Shown in pieces: positions 43,853 to 51,632 of a DNA stretch of 64,000 nucleotides. The stretch covers positions 268,151 to 332,150 of the forward strand of contig CANEZP010000001.1 in NCBI GenBank assembly GCA_947444305.1, in the 5' to 3' direction. The notes below the pieces were generated by a model that was not told the DNA's origin, searched no databases, and worked only from the letters and a program-made list of their open reading frames with translations. The stretch comes from Pseudobdellovibrionaceae bacterium. Its GTDB lineage: Bacteria; Bdellovibrionota; Bdellovibrionia; Bdellovibrionales; UBA1609. Position 1 is the first letter of the stretch; the number at the start of each line of letters is the position of its first letter. The translations under genes and the position numbers were made by a program.

Positions 43853-44788
43853 ATGAAACGCTCCAATCTCATCATGAAGCTTAGTGGACTCATTTGCGGC
43901 CTGGCCCTCACGGCCACCGCGTGCAGCAGCAGCAAAAACGAAAAGGGCGGTGGCCTACCGGCCGATATCCCGTTCAACGAAAAAGCGCTGCCGCAAATCA
44001 GCGAAGCGGATTTCGTGCAGGCGCAAGCCGTAGCGAAAAACACCGGTGAGGCCGCGGCGCCCATGGTGCAGATTCTAACAAAGAACGACGAGAGCAACGA
44101 CGATCGCCGCAAGCGCGAACAGAAATTTCAGGCTTTGAAACCCGAAGTCCAAACATTAGTACGCCGCTGGCAAATCGATTGTAAACCGAACCACGTGAAA
44201 GACGGGAAGGGGATCGAGGGCAAACCCGAAGTCGGGCGCGTTTATAAAAAAGTAGAATCCGTTGAAGCCACCGGCGCTCAGTGCCCGGTCACGATGAACG
44301 AAAAATCCGAAACGCAATTCACCGTCACGCGCTTTTCGCAAAACCCCGTTAACGTGGCGATGAGCTACTCTTCCGCGGGATCGGCACGCACGGTCTTCAA
44401 CAATACCGCCGACCAACAAACGATCGGCGCGGCGGGCTTCGCCATGACGCTGACCATGAGCGGCCGCCTCGAGCGCGTGGGCGAAACCGAGAGCGGCTAC
44501 GGTCGCATCGACGGCAAAGGCGATATGGCGTCGTTGCTTCACGGCCCCGTCGCCATTCAAATAACGACCGAAAATCTCGCGCGTCCGGGCCTCGAGAAAA
44601 GCCTGACGACCGTGAACGTAAATCAAGGCGGCAAGACATTTGTTTTTACGCAGTATTTAGATAAGGAAGAAAAATCGAAGGCCGGGCCGCGGTACTTTAT
44701 CGGTCATCGCGAACTAACTTTGGCGGAAGTCCGGGCGATGGGTGAATTCCCCTTCGCCCCGAACGAAACTATTCCTCGAGGGCGCTGA
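43853..44788 (+). CDS. Lipoprotein of unknown function
   Basis: 311 residues. Signal with lipobox-like L-T-A-T-A-C-S-S-S, then a charged helical stretch (about 60-105), and a beta-rich region (V-T-M-N-E-K-S-E-T-Q-F-T-V-T-R, F-A-M-T-L-T-M-S-G-R-L). Two cysteines at about 112 and 143 may pair. AAGGGG lies upstream of ATG 43853. Its 3' end overlaps the end of the convergent RND-LolA gene by 20 bases. No family recognised. Confidence 0.7.
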   Translation: MKRSNLIMKLSGLICGLALTATACSSSKNEKGGGLPADIPFNEKALPQISEADFVQAQAVAKNTGEAAAPMVQILTKNDESNDDRRKREQKFQALKPEVQTLVRRWQIDCKPNHVKDGKGIEGKPEVGRVYKKVESVEATGAQCPVTMNEKSETQFTVTRFSQNPVNVAMSYSSAGSARTVFNNTADQQTIGAAGFAMTLTMSGRLERVGETESGYGRIDGKGDMASLLHGPVAIQITTENLARPGLEKSLTTVNVNQGGKTFVFTQYLDKEEKSKAGPRYFIGHRELTLAEVRAMGEFPFAPNETIPRGR

Positions 44789-47700
44789 GCGAAACCTCAT
44801 CGGCGTCGATCTCGTTCATGTTCACTTTTTCCATCGTGAGCATGGTTTTACGCTTGGCCTGCAGGTTTTGTACGAGCATCGTTTTCGCGCGCCAAAATTT
44901 GCCGCCGACTTTCGTGTAGCCTTTAAACTCGGTGCGCTTGAGGAGCTTGTTGCCCTTATCGTAATACTCAATCTTTTCGAGGCGGTATTCAGGCTTCGCA
45001 ACCCAAGTCACGATCTTGCCGTAGCTTGAATCCGAATCGCTCTTCGCTTTGCTTTCGATCTCTAGAACTTTGGCGTCTTCTTTAGTGATCTTATTGTCGA
45101 ATTGCTTGTAGGTCGAGATGCTCAAATCCTCGAAAGAGATTTCGGAATCGAGGAACTTACCCTTTTTATTCGAACCGAGAATGCGGCGGCTCTTTTTGTC
45201 GGAGGGTAGGTAGAGCCACTGTTCTTCTTTGCCTTTCGAGGCGACGGTGAGCAGCGACAAACCTTTCAAATCCGAAGGCTGCATCAAGCGAACAAGTACG
45301 CGGACTTCGCCTTCGTTTTTGCGGGTGATCGTGAGCACGCGTTCTTTTTTAGAGCCGTCGGCGTCTTCGATCTGCATTTTTAATTGCACGCGCTCGTTCG
45401 GGGGCGCGCCTTGCGATTCAATTTGCTTGAGCAAATCTTGAATCGAAGTTTTAGCCTCGCCGGCTTTCGGTGCGCCGTGGGCGAAAGTGTTGTGCATGGC
45501 AATCGCACCGAGTGCGAGAAGCATTAAGATGGGCGTAAGTTTCACTGCGGTCTCCTGAAGTCTGAAAGGGAATTCCTTCAGTCTGACAGAAGGGACTTTA
45601 CCGAGCAAGAGCCAGGGGTAACGACGCAGGATCGCGGGCAGCCAAACCAGATCGCCCAAAAGTCCAGCGAGGATCGAAACGAGTACGAAAAGACCGAACA
45701 GTTTGTTCACCGGGAACACGGAGAACAAGAAGATCGAGAAACCCGCGAACAAACAGAGCGCCGAGACCAGGCAAGGCATCGTTTCTTTCTTCATGAGCGT
45801 GTAGACCGGCAGGGTGGTGGTCCGTGCGTTGTCTTTGAGCAGGTGCTTCAACCGGCCTAAGATATAGATTGTGTTGTCGAACGCAATTCCTAGACTAATC
45901 GAAAAAATAATCGCGATGCCGGGCTTGATCGGCACGTTGAAGAGCGCCAGGAAGCCCAGCAACATCGCCGGCGGCACGAGGTTCGGCACGACGCCGATGA
46001 GCGCCCAGCGCAGCGAGCGGAAGTATACGGCTAAGACCAACACGATGCCGAACAGAGCTTCGAAAAATCCCCACATCAAACGCAACGAAAGCTCTTTGTT
46101 CATGGGCGGAACGATCGCGGCCATGCCGCTCGTGCGCACTTGCATACCCGGGAACTTCGCTAACAACTTTTGTTCGATCGAACCGATAACCGCGGCGTTT
46201 TTGTCGGCCGCAAGGTCGGGGAGCCGGATCGCGACGCGGGTCCATTTTTCACTGCCGCTTAAGAACTGCTTCAGCGGGCTTTCGCCCGACATGCCGTACA
46301 GGAACTGCATCTCGGCGATACCTTCGCGCTTCGTCGGAAGTTTGCCGCCCGTGCTGACAAAGTCGGCGAGGGTGAGCACGCTGCCTACGTCTTTACGCTT
46401 ACGAAGTTCCACCGCGACGTCATTCAAGCGCGCGAGGTTCGACGGGTTCTTCCAAGGATCTTTTAGTTTGTCGCCGCCGATTACAAAATCAACGGTGGCT
46501 ACGCCGCCCAACTTCTTGCTGATCAAGTCGGTCGACAGACCGGCGGGATGGCCCACCGGCAGATCGTCGAACAGTTTAGCCGTCCACGATAAATTCATGC
46601 CGATGATTCCGAAAGTCAGCGTGAACACGAGCATCGCGGGCACGATCACTTTCGAGTGGCGCACTAAAAGGTAAGCGAAGCGCTTCGGCTCGCGCAGAAA
46701 ATCGCGCGGCTTCGGCCACTTTGCCCAAACGTATAACGAGGGCACCAAAATCATCGTCGAAAAGCTCGAGACGAGCACGCCCAGCGAAACCGCCAAACCG
46801 TAATCCGAAATCAGCTGAACGTCCGACGGGATCAAGCACGCAAAGCCCACGGAGGTCGACAAACCGGTGAGCGTCACGATGACCGAAATTTCTTTCACGA
46901 GGTCGGTCAGGTAGTGCATCCGCTTGGCCCAGTCCAACTCGGCCGCTTCGGACATACGAACTAACAAATGGGTGAAAATGCCTAGCGATGAAACCGTAAC
47001 GATGATCGGCAAGGTGCTGGCCAAAATGTTGAACGAGATACCTAAAGCGCCCATCACGCCGAGAGCTAAGGTGTTCCCGATCACCAATACGTAAAAAGCC
47101 TGCCAAAGAATTGAATAACCGTGGAACATAATCTTTAGAACGATGATCGCGCACAAAAGAGCCAAGGCGATGAAGATTAAAATTTCGTGCGAGAGCAGAT
47201 CGATCAATTGCGTGCGGATGGCCGCGGGGCCGCCCACCTGAACCTGCGCTTGCGGCAAAGCTTTGCGAGCCATCTTCTGAATGCTGCCCACGATGGCTTT
47301 GTGCTGATCTTGAGACAGTTCGCCGGGCATAACGAAGAGGGCGGTGTTGAGGCCGTCTTTCGACATTAAATTCGGCGTATATAAAGGATTGAGCGCGATG
47401 TTTTTCGAATCGTAGCCGTTTGCCTGCAAATCATTAAGCGGGCCGACGATCAATTCACCTTTTTGTTCGAACGCAGAAGGAATGTTGCCCAAGCTGATCA
47501 CCGATTTGACACCGTCGATGCCGGTGATCTCTTGGCTAAGCTTGTTCAGTTTTTTCAAGTTCTCAGTTTGATGCCATTGCTGGCCGCTTTTTTTCTTGAA
47601 CGACAATAATAAAATGTGCGGTGAATTGTCGGAAATCTGAAAAACTTTTTTGCTTTCTCGATCCGCTTTCAAGAGCGCGTGTTTCTTCGGTAAGAACTGC

Positions 47701-47819
47701 TCCATCGAGTAATTCGTCGGAATACTCATGGCGTAGTAGGTACCTACGGCGCTACCGAGGGTGAAGACCCACAATGCCGTGAGCGAGAAGATTCTGATTT
47801 TCGTCGAAGACTTGTTCAT
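44769..47819 (-). CDS. Fusion of MMPL/RND exporter and LolA-like lipoprotein-sorting domain
   Basis: 1016 residues. Residues 1 to about 750 are an MMPL-type RND protein: TM1 (12-30), a large periplasmic loop, a block of helices (about 210-370, with the sterol-sensing-like segment I-V-T-V-S-S-L-G-I-F-T-H-L), a second loop, and a second helix block (about 570-750, with F-S-I-S-L-G-I-A-F-D-N-T-I-Y). A hydrophobic stretch resembling a signal peptide (L-T-P-I-L-M-L-L-A-L-G-A-I-A-M, about 765-780) follows. The last 230 residues match the LolA-like sorting fold (V-L-V-R-L-M-Q-P-S-D-L-K-G-L, W-L-Y-L-P-S-D-K-K-S-R-R-I-L-G, F-L-D-S-E-I-S-F-E-D-L, W-V-A-K-P-E-Y-R-L-E-K-I-E-Y-Y). In other bacteria these are separate neighbouring genes. 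Likely moves lipids or lipoproteins across the periplasm. Confidence 0.88.
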   Translation of the reverse strand: MNKSSTKIRIFSLTALWVFTLGSAVGTYYAMSIPTNYSMEQFLPKKHALLKADRESKKVFQISDNSPHILLLSFKKKSGQQWHQTENLKKLNKLSQEITGIDGVKSVISLGNIPSAFEQKGELIVGPLNDLQANGYDSKNIALNPLYTPNLMSKDGLNTALFVMPGELSQDQHKAIVGSIQKMARKALPQAQVQVGGPAAIRTQLIDLLSHEILIFIALALLCAIIVLKIMFHGYSILWQAFYVLVIGNTLALGVMGALGISFNILASTLPIIVTVSSLGIFTHLLVRMSEAAELDWAKRMHYLTDLVKEISVIVTLTGLSTSVGFACLIPSDVQLISDYGLAVSLGVLVSSFSTMILVPSLYVWAKWPKPRDFLREPKRFAYLLVRHSKVIVPAMLVFTLTFGIIGMNLSWTAKLFDDLPVGHPAGLSTDLISKKLGGVATVDFVIGGDKLKDPWKNPSNLARLNDVAVELRKRKDVGSVLTLADFVSTGGKLPTKREGIAEMQFLYGMSGESPLKQFLSGSEKWTRVAIRLPDLAADKNAAVIGSIEQKLLAKFPGMQVRTSGMAAIVPPMNKELSLRLMWGFFEALFGIVLVLAVYFRSLRWALIGVVPNLVPPAMLLGFLALFNVPIKPGIAIIFSISLGIAFDNTIYILGRLKHLLKDNARTTTLPVYTLMKKETMPCLVSALCLFAGFSIFLFSVFPVNKLFGLFVLVSILAGLLGDLVWLPAILRRYPWLLLGKVPSVRLKEFPFRLQETAVKLTPILMLLALGAIAMHNTFAHGAPKAGEAKTSIQDLLKQIESQGAPPNERVQLKMQIEDADGSKKERVLTITRKNEGEVRVLVRLMQPSDLKGLSLLTVASKGKEEQWLYLPSDKKSRRILGSNKKGKFLDSEISFEDLSISTYKQFDNKITKEDAKVLEIESKAKSDSDSSYGKIVTWVAKPEYRLEKIEYYDKGNKLLKRTEFKGYTKVGGKFWRAKTMLVQNLQAKRKTMLTMEKVNMNEIDADEVSLSALEE

Positions 47820-47968: not shown

Positions 47969-49498
47969 ATGAAAAGTACTTTAGCATTTTGCAAAACACT
48001 GGTGATCTTAGCCCTCGCGTTGCCGAATCTGTCGTCGGCCGCGAACGATTTGAAAGTTCAGGGCGACTTGATGATTCATCCGGATCAAATTGCGAAGTTC
48101 TTTGATATCGCCGGTAACAAAATCGTTTCGACGACCTCGTGGGCTTGGCCCGCGCTTAGCTTCGCGAAACCTTACCGTACGACCTGGAACAACGTGGCCG
48201 CGAAAGGACCGTTCGGCGTCCGTTTCGATACCGCCGATTTGAAAAACCAAGAAGTAGGCTTCGAGCTAGATTGGCTCGAGCCCACCGTCAGCGTCGGTCG
48301 TTTTGAAATCCACGACACCATTCAACGTCAAGTCGGCGGCGTCAACTTGACGATCCAACTCGACGGTGCGTGCAACAACATGATGATCCGCGTACCGGCC
48401 GGTGCTTGGAAAGTAAAAGGCAACTTGAAGTGGACTTGGACGACGCAAGGGATGCAAGTCGCTTGGAAGGACTTCCAATTCTCGATGAACCCCGGCGCCG
48501 CGGGCGTGGTGGATCTCGGTCAGTGCGAAGGCCCGCTCGGATTACATAAAGAACTGCGCAACGCGATCGAGACGGTAAGCCGCGATCAAGCCTGGATGCA
48601 AGACGTGTTGAAAGACGGCGTGCTTGACTGGGTTAGCGGCTCGCTCGGAAGCTTGCAAAACGAGCTTTTAAAAACCCGCAACGTCGAAGTAAAGAAGGGC
48701 TTAACCTTGAGTTGGATTCCTTCGGATCTCGTCGATGCCGGTCAGGGCGTCTTGCGTATCCCGGGTCAGGTCGTGATTTCGAAAAGCTCGGCCGCGACTT
48801 CGAGCCAAACGCTTGAGCGCGGTTACGATCTGCCGTCTTTAAATACCGTCAAAGAATCCGGCTTCGTGCTTCCCCGCGGCACCGTTCCTCGCGTCATTGA
48901 ATTCATGCAAAAGAACGGTGAGCTAAGCTACCGCGCAAAATCCAACGACATCGAATCGTTCGTGGAGCTGATGCAAAACCAATTCATGCAATTCTTCGTA
49001 TGGCCTGACCTGATGAACTTCGACGAGAAAACTCAGTTCTACTTTGACGTCAGCGCGCAGAAGCCACCCACGTTCTCGAACGGCGTGATGTTGCCCGCGG
49101 GCGGCCTTCGTTACGATGTCAGCGCACCGCTCGTGGTCAATCAATGGGCACCCGCCAAGGGCAAGTACGTGCCTTACGTTGATTTCACTTCGCCGATGCA
49201 AGGTGCGATGAGCGCGAAAATTAAAGACGGTAAGTTCACGGTTCAATTGCAGCCGGCTTCGCTCGAAGTTAGCTCGCGTTTCCGCCGTGAGTATTCGGTC
49301 GTCCGCCAAGTTACCGATTGGATCGCCACATCACTTTTAGGTTCGCGAGTTTCGGATTACTTGGCCTCGAAGCCGATGTCCTTCGACGTGCCCGCGTGGG
49401 ACCTCGGCGACGGCACCATGTCTTTAAGCCCGCGTGACGTTCAATTGTGGAAGTACAGCTTCCGCGTCCCGTTAGATTTTAAAACGAATCAAAAATAG
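47969..49498 (+). CDS. Secreted protein of unknown function, beta-rich
   Basis: 509 residues with a clear signal peptide (L-V-I-L-A-L-A-L-P-N-L-S-S-A-A). The mature part alternates amphipathic beta strands and long helices, with two related halves: each half ends in a strand pair after a helix that reads like E-T-V-S-R-D-Q-A-W-M-Q-D-V-L or R-Q-V-T-D-W-I-A-T-S-L-L. This pattern recalls TULIP/BPI-type lipid-binding tubes, but I cannot confirm it. Only one cysteine pair. GAAGGA precedes ATG 47969. Divergent from the RND-LolA gene with a 149-base shared regulatory gap, and its end overlaps the barrel gene by 10 bases, suggesting a shared envelope task. Confidence 0.65.
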   Translation: MKSTLAFCKTLVILALALPNLSSAANDLKVQGDLMIHPDQIAKFFDIAGNKIVSTTSWAWPALSFAKPYRTTWNNVAAKGPFGVRFDTADLKNQEVGFELDWLEPTVSVGRFEIHDTIQRQVGGVNLTIQLDGACNNMMIRVPAGAWKVKGNLKWTWTTQGMQVAWKDFQFSMNPGAAGVVDLGQCEGPLGLHKELRNAIETVSRDQAWMQDVLKDGVLDWVSGSLGSLQNELLKTRNVEVKKGLTLSWIPSDLVDAGQGVLRIPGQVVISKSSAATSSQTLERGYDLPSLNTVKESGFVLPRGTVPRVIEFMQKNGELSYRAKSNDIESFVELMQNQFMQFFVWPDLMNFDEKTQFYFDVSAQKPPTFSNGVMLPAGGLRYDVSAPLVVNQWAPAKGKYVPYVDFTSPMQGAMSAKIKDGKFTVQLQPASLEVSSRFRREYSVVRQVTDWIATSLLGSRVSDYLASKPMSFDVPAWDLGDGTMSLSPRDVQLWKYSFRVPLDFKTNQK

Positions 49499-50814
49499 TA
49501 AGTCAGATCTAGCGTGGCGTGATCGTTGCGGTCGTAGGTTTTAATCAAACCATCTTCCGCGGCGGAGAAATCACGCCAGCTCAAGCCCCAGCGTAGGCTA
49601 TCGGAAAGTTTATTTTCAAATCCGGCCGACGCAAAAATGCCTTTCGTGTTTCCCTCGAATAAAATAGACGACATCAAAGTTAGATTCTCCGACCACGCCC
49701 AGCGCGTGCCGAGCACCGCCGTGCGATCAAACAACCGGTAGGATGAGGAGATCAAATTGTCGGGCGCCTGAGGGTTTCTAGTGTAATAAATTTGCGCGAG
49801 CACGATCATGCTCGTAGAACCTAGATTCACCGTCGTCTCGGCGGCGGCCACGTTCGACCAGCTCCACGGTTGCAATAGCGGATCTTCGTTGATGGTGTGC
49901 TGGTACGCGCTTTCGACGCGAAAAATTACTTTTTGCAAAGCCCAAACGAAACCCGCGCTCGACGTGCGAACGCGGTAGTACACGGGCCTGAATTTAACGG
50001 GCGAGACGGCCACAAAATTCGGGTTCCCCGATATGATGGTGATGTCCGGCCGGGCTTTCGGTTGCGGCGCCGCACCTTCGAAGTGCATCGCGAAAAGATC
50101 GAGCGAGCCGAGGTGGGAGCTCAAGCGCAGGCCGGCGTTGTGATCGAGCGCATCGGTCGTCAAATTATTGCGCTTCGAGCCACTCCGCATGACCTCGTCG
50201 CCTTCAATTTTGTATTCGATAAAATCGGGGATATCGATATGCCCGTACTCGGTATTCACGTTGATCAAAAACTTGCGCGGCAACCAACGGGAATCTTCCG
50301 ACGGTAAAACCCCGCGGCGTTGGCGAGGGATGTAGAGCGCTTGTACGCCGAACACTTCTTTGTCGTAATTCACTTCGACCATCGGCGAGCCGCGCTTCAA
50401 AATCCGCATGGGTCCTAGAAACGCCGACGGATTGATCACGTCGCTTGGGCTTGCCACGTCGGTCACGCCCCAATTCACCGTGTTCATACCGATTCGTATT
50501 TTCGTCGCCGACGAAGCTTTGACCTCGACGAACGCTTCGGGCACGTCCCAGTACGCTTTCTCAGGGGCAAATTCACTTTCGGGATTGGTCAGCGCGAGGA
50601 GGCGATATTGCAATCGCCACTTTTTAGATAATTTATTTTTACCCGAGCCGTCTAAGATTAAAAACGGCGAAATCGTGTCGGTCGGTTTGCCCAGATCTTC
50701 GGGATAATAATCGGTCGACGATTTGAGCGTGCCCGAATACTTCGCGAACGCGGGCAGCGTGAACATGATCAGCGCGGCCGCAAAAATTCCGCGGCTAAAG
50801 CGGCGGACGCTCAC
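49489..50814 (-). CDS. Outer-membrane beta-barrel, DUF1302-like
   Basis: 441 residues. Signal peptide (I-F-A-A-A-L-I-M-F-T-L-P-A-F-A). The segment E-A-F-V-E-V-K-A-S-S-A-T-K-I-R-I-G-M-N-T-V-N-W-G-V-T-D-V-A-S-P-S-D-V-I-N matches the sequence style of DUF1302 barrels, which are found with LolA-like and RND genes in other proteobacteria. The final strand ends L-D-L-T-Y-Y-F, the BAM signal. GTG 50814 overlaps the stop of the DUF2799 gene (GTGA), so the two are co-translated. Probable outer-membrane partner of the RND-LolA fusion. Confidence 0.75.
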   Translation of the reverse strand: MSVRRFSRGIFAAALIMFTLPAFAKYSGTLKSSTDYYPEDLGKPTDTISPFLILDGSGKNKLSKKWRLQYRLLALTNPESEFAPEKAYWDVPEAFVEVKASSATKIRIGMNTVNWGVTDVASPSDVINPSAFLGPMRILKRGSPMVEVNYDKEVFGVQALYIPRQRRGVLPSEDSRWLPRKFLINVNTEYGHIDIPDFIEYKIEGDEVMRSGSKRNNLTTDALDHNAGLRLSSHLGSLDLFAMHFEGAAPQPKARPDITIISGNPNFVAVSPVKFRPVYYRVRTSSAGFVWALQKVIFRVESAYQHTINEDPLLQPWSWSNVAAAETTVNLGSTSMIVLAQIYYTRNPQAPDNLISSSYRLFDRTAVLGTRWAWSENLTLMSSILFEGNTKGIFASAGFENKLSDSLRWGLSWRDFSAAEDGLIKTYDRNDHATLDLTYYF

Positions 50815-51632
50815 AGTCCGGCCATTTCGGTGCGCATCTTGCTCAACTCGGTACCTAAGGTCTCTTGTTGACCGCGCGTGCGCTGGATCTGGTAGTTCAC
50901 GCTTGAGATGTCGTTCGACAATTGCTGACTGCGCATGCGCGCCTGTTCGTCGGGTGTTTGCGTGACCACTTCTTTGTACGTATTTGTCATCGGATCGAAC
51001 ACGCGTTCGCGCCTCGTCGTCGTATTGTGCGCGAGCGTAGATTGCTGAAAAGTAAGGGCTTGCCGTTGCAACTCAAGTCGGCGGACTTCGCCGTCGAGTC
51101 GGGTGACCTCACGCTCTTTCTCGTCGATGACGGCCTTGAGCCAGATCTTACGGCCGCGGCGGTACTCGGTCATCCACGCTTCTTCGCTATCGTTCGGGCA
51201 CACGTCCAAATAGATTCCGCCCGTGCTGCCGAAGCGGTAACCGTTCGCCGGCGTACAAAAGATGCGGTTGCCTTCAACGTAGCGCGCGCGCATTTTCTTT
51301 TCCGATTCGCCGTCGCACATATCGTAAGAGAACGGTTTGCCCGCTTTGCCGACCGCAAAGACGTTATCTCCCGTGCAGTACTTGCCCATCCCGGCTTTAA
51401 ATCCGGTATCCATATCGGTCCAAGCGACTTTGGCTTCAACCTTTGTGCATTGTTTGACGTGGTCGTCGGCGTCGAGCCTTTTACCCGCCATCGCGACGTC
51501 GTGCCCGTGCTGGTACCAATTGGTTTTTTCGCACTCTTTGCGTTTAAAGTAACTAGCGCAACCCGTGGTGGAGAGGCCGGTAAAGATAAAGACGGTGAGG
51601 ATCGTAGCGGCGCGGACCATTTGCGAAACCAA
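50811..51632 (-). CDS. DUF2799 family lipoprotein
   Basis: 273 residues from TTG 51632, which has AAAGGAG 6 bases upstream; ATG 51620 is too far from it. Lipobox L-S-T-T-G-C. DUF2799 core (about 35-150): N-W-Y-Q-H-G-H-D-V-A-M-A-G, repeated F-K-A-G-M-G-K-Y-C-T, G-S-T-G-G-I-Y-L-D-V-C, with six conserved-looking cysteines. A coiled-coil follows (about 165-273; E-R-E-V-T-R-L-D-G-E-V-R-R-L-E-L-Q-R-Q). Domain function unknown. Upstream member of the pair with the barrel; a 15-base palindrome lies 33 bases before the start. Confidence 0.85.
   Translation of the reverse strand: MVSQMVRAATILTVFIFTGLSTTGCASYFKRKECEKTNWYQHGHDVAMAGKRLDADDHVKQCTKVEAKVAWTDMDTGFKAGMGKYCTGDNVFAVGKAGKPFSYDMCDGESEKKMRARYVEGNRIFCTPANGYRFGSTGGIYLDVCPNDSEEAWMTEYRRGRKIWLKAVIDEKEREVTRLDGEVRRLELQRQALTFQQSTLAHNTTTRRERVFDPMTNTYKEVVTQTPDEQARMRSQQLSNDISSVNYQIQRTRGQQETLGTELSKMRTEMAGL

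Follow-up and report, generated by a model that had tools for sequence, protein, structure and literature searches.

We analysed a stretch of 64,000 nucleotides (the window) from the genome of a Pseudobdellovibrionaceae bacterium (assembly GCA_947444305.1, contig CANEZP010000001.1, positions 268,151 to 332,150 of the forward strand), in which one open reading frame (ORF) of 1016 codons, with zero internal stops, encodes an MMPL/RND pump that runs on into a LolA-like carrier domain. On balance we favour the reading that this single ORF gives rise to an HAE3/MMPL-like pump and to a released LolA-like carrier, both of which would act within a system for transport of lipids or other hydrophobic compounds between the two membranes. 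The fusion architecture itself is of a known kind, having been published in 2018 for TOL_3187; the interest of the present locus lies mainly in what the join contains, a candidate internal start and a signal peptide, and in a partner protein that is predicted to have the TULIP fold. The features of the ORF are as follows.

44769..47819, minus strand: single ORF of 1016 aa comprising MMPL/RND pump, internal signal peptide and LolA-like carrier.
45615..47819, minus strand: RND/MMPL part, residues 1–735, with 12 predicted transmembrane (TM) helices and two periplasmic loops (two Pfam MMPL matches, AlphaFold2 helices, Foldseek).
45546..45614, minus strand: linker, residues 736–758, cytoplasmic and poorly conserved (alignment, AlphaFold2).
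45552..45556, minus strand: Shine–Dalgarno (SD)-like AGGAG, 6 nt ahead of the internal GTG.
45543..45545, minus strand: candidate internal GTG start (residue 759), from which a free LolA-like preprotein of 258 aa would be made (enrichment across the family, codon constraint in Bdellovibrio).
45480..45545, minus strand: internal signal peptide, residues 759–780, with a predicted signal peptidase I (SPase I) cut after Ala780 (T-F-A/H-G).
44772..45479, minus strand: mature LolA-like carrier domain, residues 781–1016 (PF17131; PDB 3bk5, 9tp6).

A preliminary description of this DNA had proposed that an RND protein continues without a stop into a LolA-like domain, and this was borne out by the ORF, by Pfam and by structure prediction. 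Two stretches of the ORF matched MMPL (PF03176; E=2.9e-26, 92.6 bits against a cut-off of 20.5; best match at residues 42–366), and residues 838–1015 matched LolA_like (PF17131; E=5.6e-41, 140.6 bits against a cut-off of 30) over positions 2–183 of the 184 in the profile, with DUF1329 giving a weak match only. Scanned apart, each half matched its own family (760 aa with MMPL, 5.7e-27; 256 aa with LolA_like, 3.8e-42). The best-scoring curated RND subfamily for the pump half was HAE3 (TIGR00921), at 137.5 bits and below the cut-off of 351.9, so that by its profile scores the pump is HAE3-like and not a filed HAE3 member. Its scores with the HpnN models were also below their cut-offs (TIGR03480, 67.3 against 751.85 bits; NF052374, 22.4 against 1100), as was that of the carrier with the LolA3 family (NF053579, 17.6 bits against 83). 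An AlphaFold2 model of the full chain, built from 33 homologues (predicted local distance difference test score, pLDDT, 87.4), consisted of an RND fold and a LolA fold with a low-confidence linker between them; residues 743–755 and 774–789, at the join, were its sole poorly predicted stretches. The top structural matches of the pump part were MmpL4/5, with NPC1L1, MmpL3 and HpnN also among them (5khn, 8zkp, 6ajf), and the C-terminal part matched Porphyromonas gingivalis LolA3 (9tp6; TMt 0.84–0.86, root-mean-square deviation 1.9–2.4 Å). The chance that the fusion is an assembly or frameshift artefact is negligible, as dozens of independent genomes, closed chromosomes included, have this ORF at full length; full-length fused relatives from many genera and families, together with split orthologues, exclude an assembly join.

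The preliminary description had also remarked on a stretch at the join that resembled a signal peptide. This stretch is real (residues 759–780), and the join corresponds to a former signal peptide. The linker ahead of it has a mean identity of 16% among relatives in the clade of pumps that includes the window's protein (type 1), compared with 34–36% in the domains. If translation began at the internal GTG, the signal peptide in the window would be MKLTPILMLLALGAIAMHNTFA, with the predicted cut ahead of HG, and Ala780 is conserved at 90% or more in the alignment. Sites for SPase I were scored with weights fixed beforehand from the general (-3,-1) rule and left unfitted. Such a site followed the hydrophobic core in 89% of 44 non-redundant fused proteins (Ala at -1 in 98%) and was present in 91% of free LolA-like proteins, whereas control in-to-out helices of the same pumps, likewise followed by a periplasmic domain, had a site in 32% (TM1) and 36% (TM7) of cases. 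When the post-core residues were shuffled (200 shuffles), 65% had a site on average and 80% at most. The nominal p values of 5e-9 (versus TM1) and 1e-6 (versus TM7) overstate the evidence because the sequences are related. The join therefore retains the features of a working-looking, cleavable signal peptide.

The second feature of the join is a candidate ribosome start. In the window this region reads CAGGAGACCGCA-GTG-AAACTT, and the predicted preprotein of 258 aa would consist of MKLTPILMLLALGAIAMHNTFA followed by HGAP and the remainder of the carrier. Internal starts were scanned for as ATG, GTG and TTG, with penalties, at up to 16 codons before the hydrophobic core, and were scored by SD duplex energy. 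At a duplex energy of -5 or below, an in-frame start preceded by an SD sequence was found in 19 of the 44 non-redundant fused genes (43%), compared with 2.3% of windows drawn at random from these genes; with the limit set at -7 the corresponding figures were 12/44 and 0.1%. Codon usage in Bdellovibrio pointed the same way. Across a sample of 19 Bdellovibrio genes, whose proteins are 67–98% identical, the motif K-K-E-K/R-x-M is encoded by AAR-AAG-GAG-(K/R)-NNN-ATG. Just one of the 34 invariant Lys columns in this sample was AAG in at least 90% of genes and just one of the 19 invariant Glu columns was GAG in at least 90%, and these two synonym-frozen columns are the adjacent codons that make AAGGAG before the internal ATG. 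Freezing of this kind marks a ribosome-binding site under selection within the coding frame. RNA structure around the internal start was nothing special (z = -0.7), and scans for promoters and terminators gave no more matches than chance.

The partner protein is encoded on the opposite strand, beyond the start of the pump.

47969..49498, plus strand: divergent 509-aa secreted protein with a predicted two-domain BPI/CETP/LBP-like TULIP fold (structure prediction, co-inheritance).

The gap between the two divergent genes is 150 bp in the window and mostly below 125 bp in other genomes. The 509-aa protein had no match in Pfam, NCBIfam or PDB sequences, and none of the DUF4403/TULIP Pfam families was found in 22 members; since no sequence family was found, only the fold search identified it as a TULIP protein. 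With the predicted model (pLDDT 84.5), Foldseek returned human BPI (E 4e-15), CETP (5e-14) and LBP (2e-13) at a probability of 1.00. We therefore regard the protein as having a predicted lipid-transfer TULIP fold and as a putative lipid binder. Only C135, C186, G188, Phe357 and the start Met were invariant in 22 relatives, and the invariance of the two cysteines suggests a disulphide. Among 141 genomes of the order, with type-1 pumps counted, both genes were present in 59, the pump only in 3 (G095, G012, G140), the TULIP gene only in 4 (G018, G082, G098, G122; several of these genomes are fragmentary) and neither in 75. The TULIP protein is thus almost perfectly co-inherited with the pump, in 59 of the 66 genomes having either.

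Beyond the TULIP gene lies a putative outer-membrane component, and the gene order barrel, TULIP, pump is conserved among relatives.

49489..50814, minus strand (that of the pump): 441-aa outer-membrane beta-barrel, probably DUF1302-like (profile comparison).

The barrel itself has no Pfam match; the profile of its family matched a DUF1302-annotated protein of Haliovirga (Fusobacteriota) with hhalign (Prob 93, E=3e-7). The gene for the Haliovirga protein is plasmid-borne and stands beside separate MMPL and LolA-like genes. Outside Bdellovibrionota, where occurrence was taken from plasmid matches and the literature, the two families also lie side by side as separate genes in Fusobacteriota and Gammaproteobacteria, and the earlier statement that they are habitual neighbours holds. 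A further gene on the minus strand (50811–51632) shares 4 bp with the beginning of the barrel gene; its product is lipoprotein-like, contains DUF2799 and has an extended coiled-coil region at the C-terminus. The gene in the matching place of the closest genome (L042) is no recognisable relative of it.

Full-length fused relatives, at 27–58% identity, occur in numerous genera and families across Bdellovibrionota. About a dozen of the 59 near relatives have one, as do more of the 141 genomes of the order, among them nearly every Bdellovibrio genome listed and Bdellovibrio bacteriovorus kdesi (NZ_CP102930; L069, 7971–11009). The locus is patchy even within the genus of the window, as two congeneric genomes of 94–99% completeness (G002, G003) are without the pump-carrier gene and the TULIP gene. 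A second, remoter set of fused MMPL-LolA_like proteins (~1036–1116 aa, 20–25% identical, LolA_like E to 1e-64; L114–L126, L128, L129) belongs to other families of the phylum, where the fused gene is often preceded by a TetR gene and immediately followed by a barrel gene. No TULIP gene was present in these neighbourhoods, and several members retain an SD sequence and ATG ahead of the internal signal peptide.

The survey of relatives that the preliminary description had called for turned up split orthologues as well as fused ones. The halves may be adjacent genes that overlap by 4–8 bp (L081, L082, L087) or by about 14 bp (L086), and in a further split form (L091/L052) the carrier gene has been relocated and lies beyond the barrel gene. 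The latter locus also has an additional 445-aa gene between TULIP and pump. On a tree of 72 pumps the fused or separate state changed 9 times, with 7 changes forced by well-supported branches; L080 was scored as separate and is merely cut by a contig end, so the count is best taken as ~7–9. A single origin of the fusion is not supported, the state having changed at least ~7 times on the tree. With this many interchanges, a permanent covalent link cannot be essential.

Several results weigh against the reading that we favour. The GTG site of the window is modest when taken alone, with about 1–2% of random windows scoring equally, and a convincing internal start is missing from roughly half of the non-redundant fused genes, which would leave the long polypeptide as the sole source of carrier in those genomes. 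Shuffled linkers stay open in 35% of cases, to be multiplied by 1/3 for frame, yet there are 33 fused against ~5 split type-1 lineages. The frame is therefore open beyond neutral expectation and the long product is probably useful too, we infer either as a polyprotein, which would hold the two parts at 1:1 and couple them, or as a partly tethered form. An internal signal peptide that is cleaved from a polyprotein has a precedent in the cytochrome b/c1 precursor FbcH of Bradyrhizobium. Against BPI the TULIP model has global TM-scores of 0.42–0.46, a modest figure for which a difference in bend of the two domains is probably responsible. There is also the matter of energy. The canonical proton relay of MmpL3-type proteins consists of Asp residues in TM4 and TM10. 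No canonical TM4 Asp was found across the type-1 clade, the window's protein included (residues 277–284), and the TM10 position (residues 644–652) is mostly Asn, with Asp in 7 of 33 including the window (Asp648); N649, E212, E679 and D723 are invariant in type-1 pumps. Proton coupling of these pumps may be unusual or lost.

The open frame could instead reflect a permanent tether, as the preliminary description had supposed, in which the former signal peptide serves as an uncleaved 13th TM helix and holds the LolA domain in the periplasm beside the pump for a fixed hand-over. Topology is in keeping with this, as the RND part ends in the cytoplasm after 12 helices and a 13th crossing is required to put the LolA domain outside, and the AlphaFold2 model has a helix at 752–782, at low pLDDT. 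We nevertheless consider a permanent tether unlikely: an anchor could have lost the cleavage motif, whereas here it is retained as often as in free carriers and far more often than after TM1 and TM7, internal ribosome sites are conserved and split orthologues exist. The fusion is genuine; the tether that was read into it is partly supported at best, and the fixed hand-over drawn from the tether is not supported, in view of the cleavable-looking signal peptide, the internal starts and the repeated changes of state. At the other extreme, two independently translated genes might simply share a frame, with internal initiation making the working carrier and readthrough yielding a harmless by-product. 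The strong SD and start sites and the short stop/start overlaps (4–8 bp) of split orthologues would fit, but a convincing internal start is wanting in about half or more of the non-redundant members and the frame is open more than chance allows, which makes this improbable. Less probable still is a role in lipoprotein sorting to the outer membrane, which the LolA name would imply. PF17131 is indeed annotated as outer-membrane lipoprotein-sorting and the domain has the LolA fold; however, the partners are an RND pump, a TULIP-fold protein and a DUF1302-like barrel in place of LolCDE/LolB, and point to transport of lipids or hydrophobic compounds. The locus is also missing from 75–79 of the 141 genomes of the order, in contrast to an essential sorting path. 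Better candidates for that function are free LolA_like genes of the same genome beside FtsX/MacB-type ABC permeases.

These free genes (G000:C1:86138-86677 and G000:C6:188809-189327; L059, L060) represent the same LolA_like carrier family, here paired with an ABC exporter rather than an RND pump. An ABC ATPase is present at L060 with a barrel-like gene nearby, and an uncharacterised 390-aa ORF flanks the LolA_like gene at L059.

A released carrier working with the pump could arise by two routes. Ribosomes would start internally, in this gene at the GTG at 45545, and SPase I would cut the long polypeptide after Ala780. The locus most likely serves transport of a lipid or hydrophobic compound between inner and outer membrane, because of the TULIP-fold and DUF1302-like neighbours and because published modules related to it handle hydrophobic compounds. 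RND pumps usually export. The pump would draw its cargo, a lipid or some other hydrophobic compound, out of the inner membrane; in the periplasm the LolA-like cup would shield this cargo, the BPI/CETP-like TULIP protein (47969–49498) would shuttle or bridge it as an extra carrier, and the DUF1302-like barrel (49489–50814) would form the outer-membrane end.

Comparable systems have been described elsewhere. TOL_3187 of Thalassolituus oleivorans has two MMPL domains and a LolA-like domain, with a porin gene (TOL_3188) alongside, and the pair was up 42-fold on a long-chain alkane, C28 (PMC6304351). From this published description it has the same fused architecture; it is gammaproteobacterial, and neither a TULIP gene nor an analysis of the junction was reported there. 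AmeABCD of Castellaniella defragrans, deletion of which lowers monoterpene tolerance, has a similar composition in that it combines an RND pump (HAE3) with a LolA-superfamily periplasmic protein and a DUF1302-type outer-membrane protein (PMC6394551), but as separate genes, with DUF1329 rather than LolA_like and with a COG4447-type fourth protein in the place of TULIP. The RND fold is common to the window's pump and the lipid exporters HpnN and MmpL3-5, from which the pump differs in scoring far below the HpnN and HAE3 cut-offs and in having no canonical TM4 Asp. ApeL, ApeM and ApeN of aryl-polyene clusters, which are proposed to move an aryl-polyene lipid to the outer membrane (PMC8253772), share the combination of LolA-like carrier and RND transporter; they are separate genes, and a LolB-like receptor replaces barrel and TULIP. 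Borrelia BBJ23-29 resembles the locus in having a LolA-like carrier, an inner-membrane exporter and an outer-membrane barrel, and differs in its ABC (MacB-like) exporter, Omp85 barrel and separate genes (PMC13078400). Known bacterial TULIP proteins include DUF4403, YceB and P47/OrfX2 (PMC6791001); a two-domain BPI-like fold is predicted for both DUF4403 and the 509-aa protein, whose members have no DUF4403 Pfam match and are tied to one pump.

In-frame 'domain fusions' of bacteria can conceal a second protein that is complete, has a start of its own and can be cleaved off, and tethering should therefore not be inferred from an ORF alone. To the question, still to be settled, of how lipids other than lipopolysaccharide travel to the outer membrane, modules of RND pump, LolA-like carrier and barrel are a widespread and barely tested answer. 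The order of predatory bacteria examined here adds a BPI/CETP-type protein to this module, in a compact and genetically tractable system. We tentatively suggest that two forms of carrier, a long pump-linked form whose frame is under selection and which is perhaps processed, and a free shuttle made from the internal ribosome start, may together with a previously unrecognised BPI/CETP-like family and a barrel constitute a lipid transport system that spans the envelope of Bdellovibrio and related bacteria.

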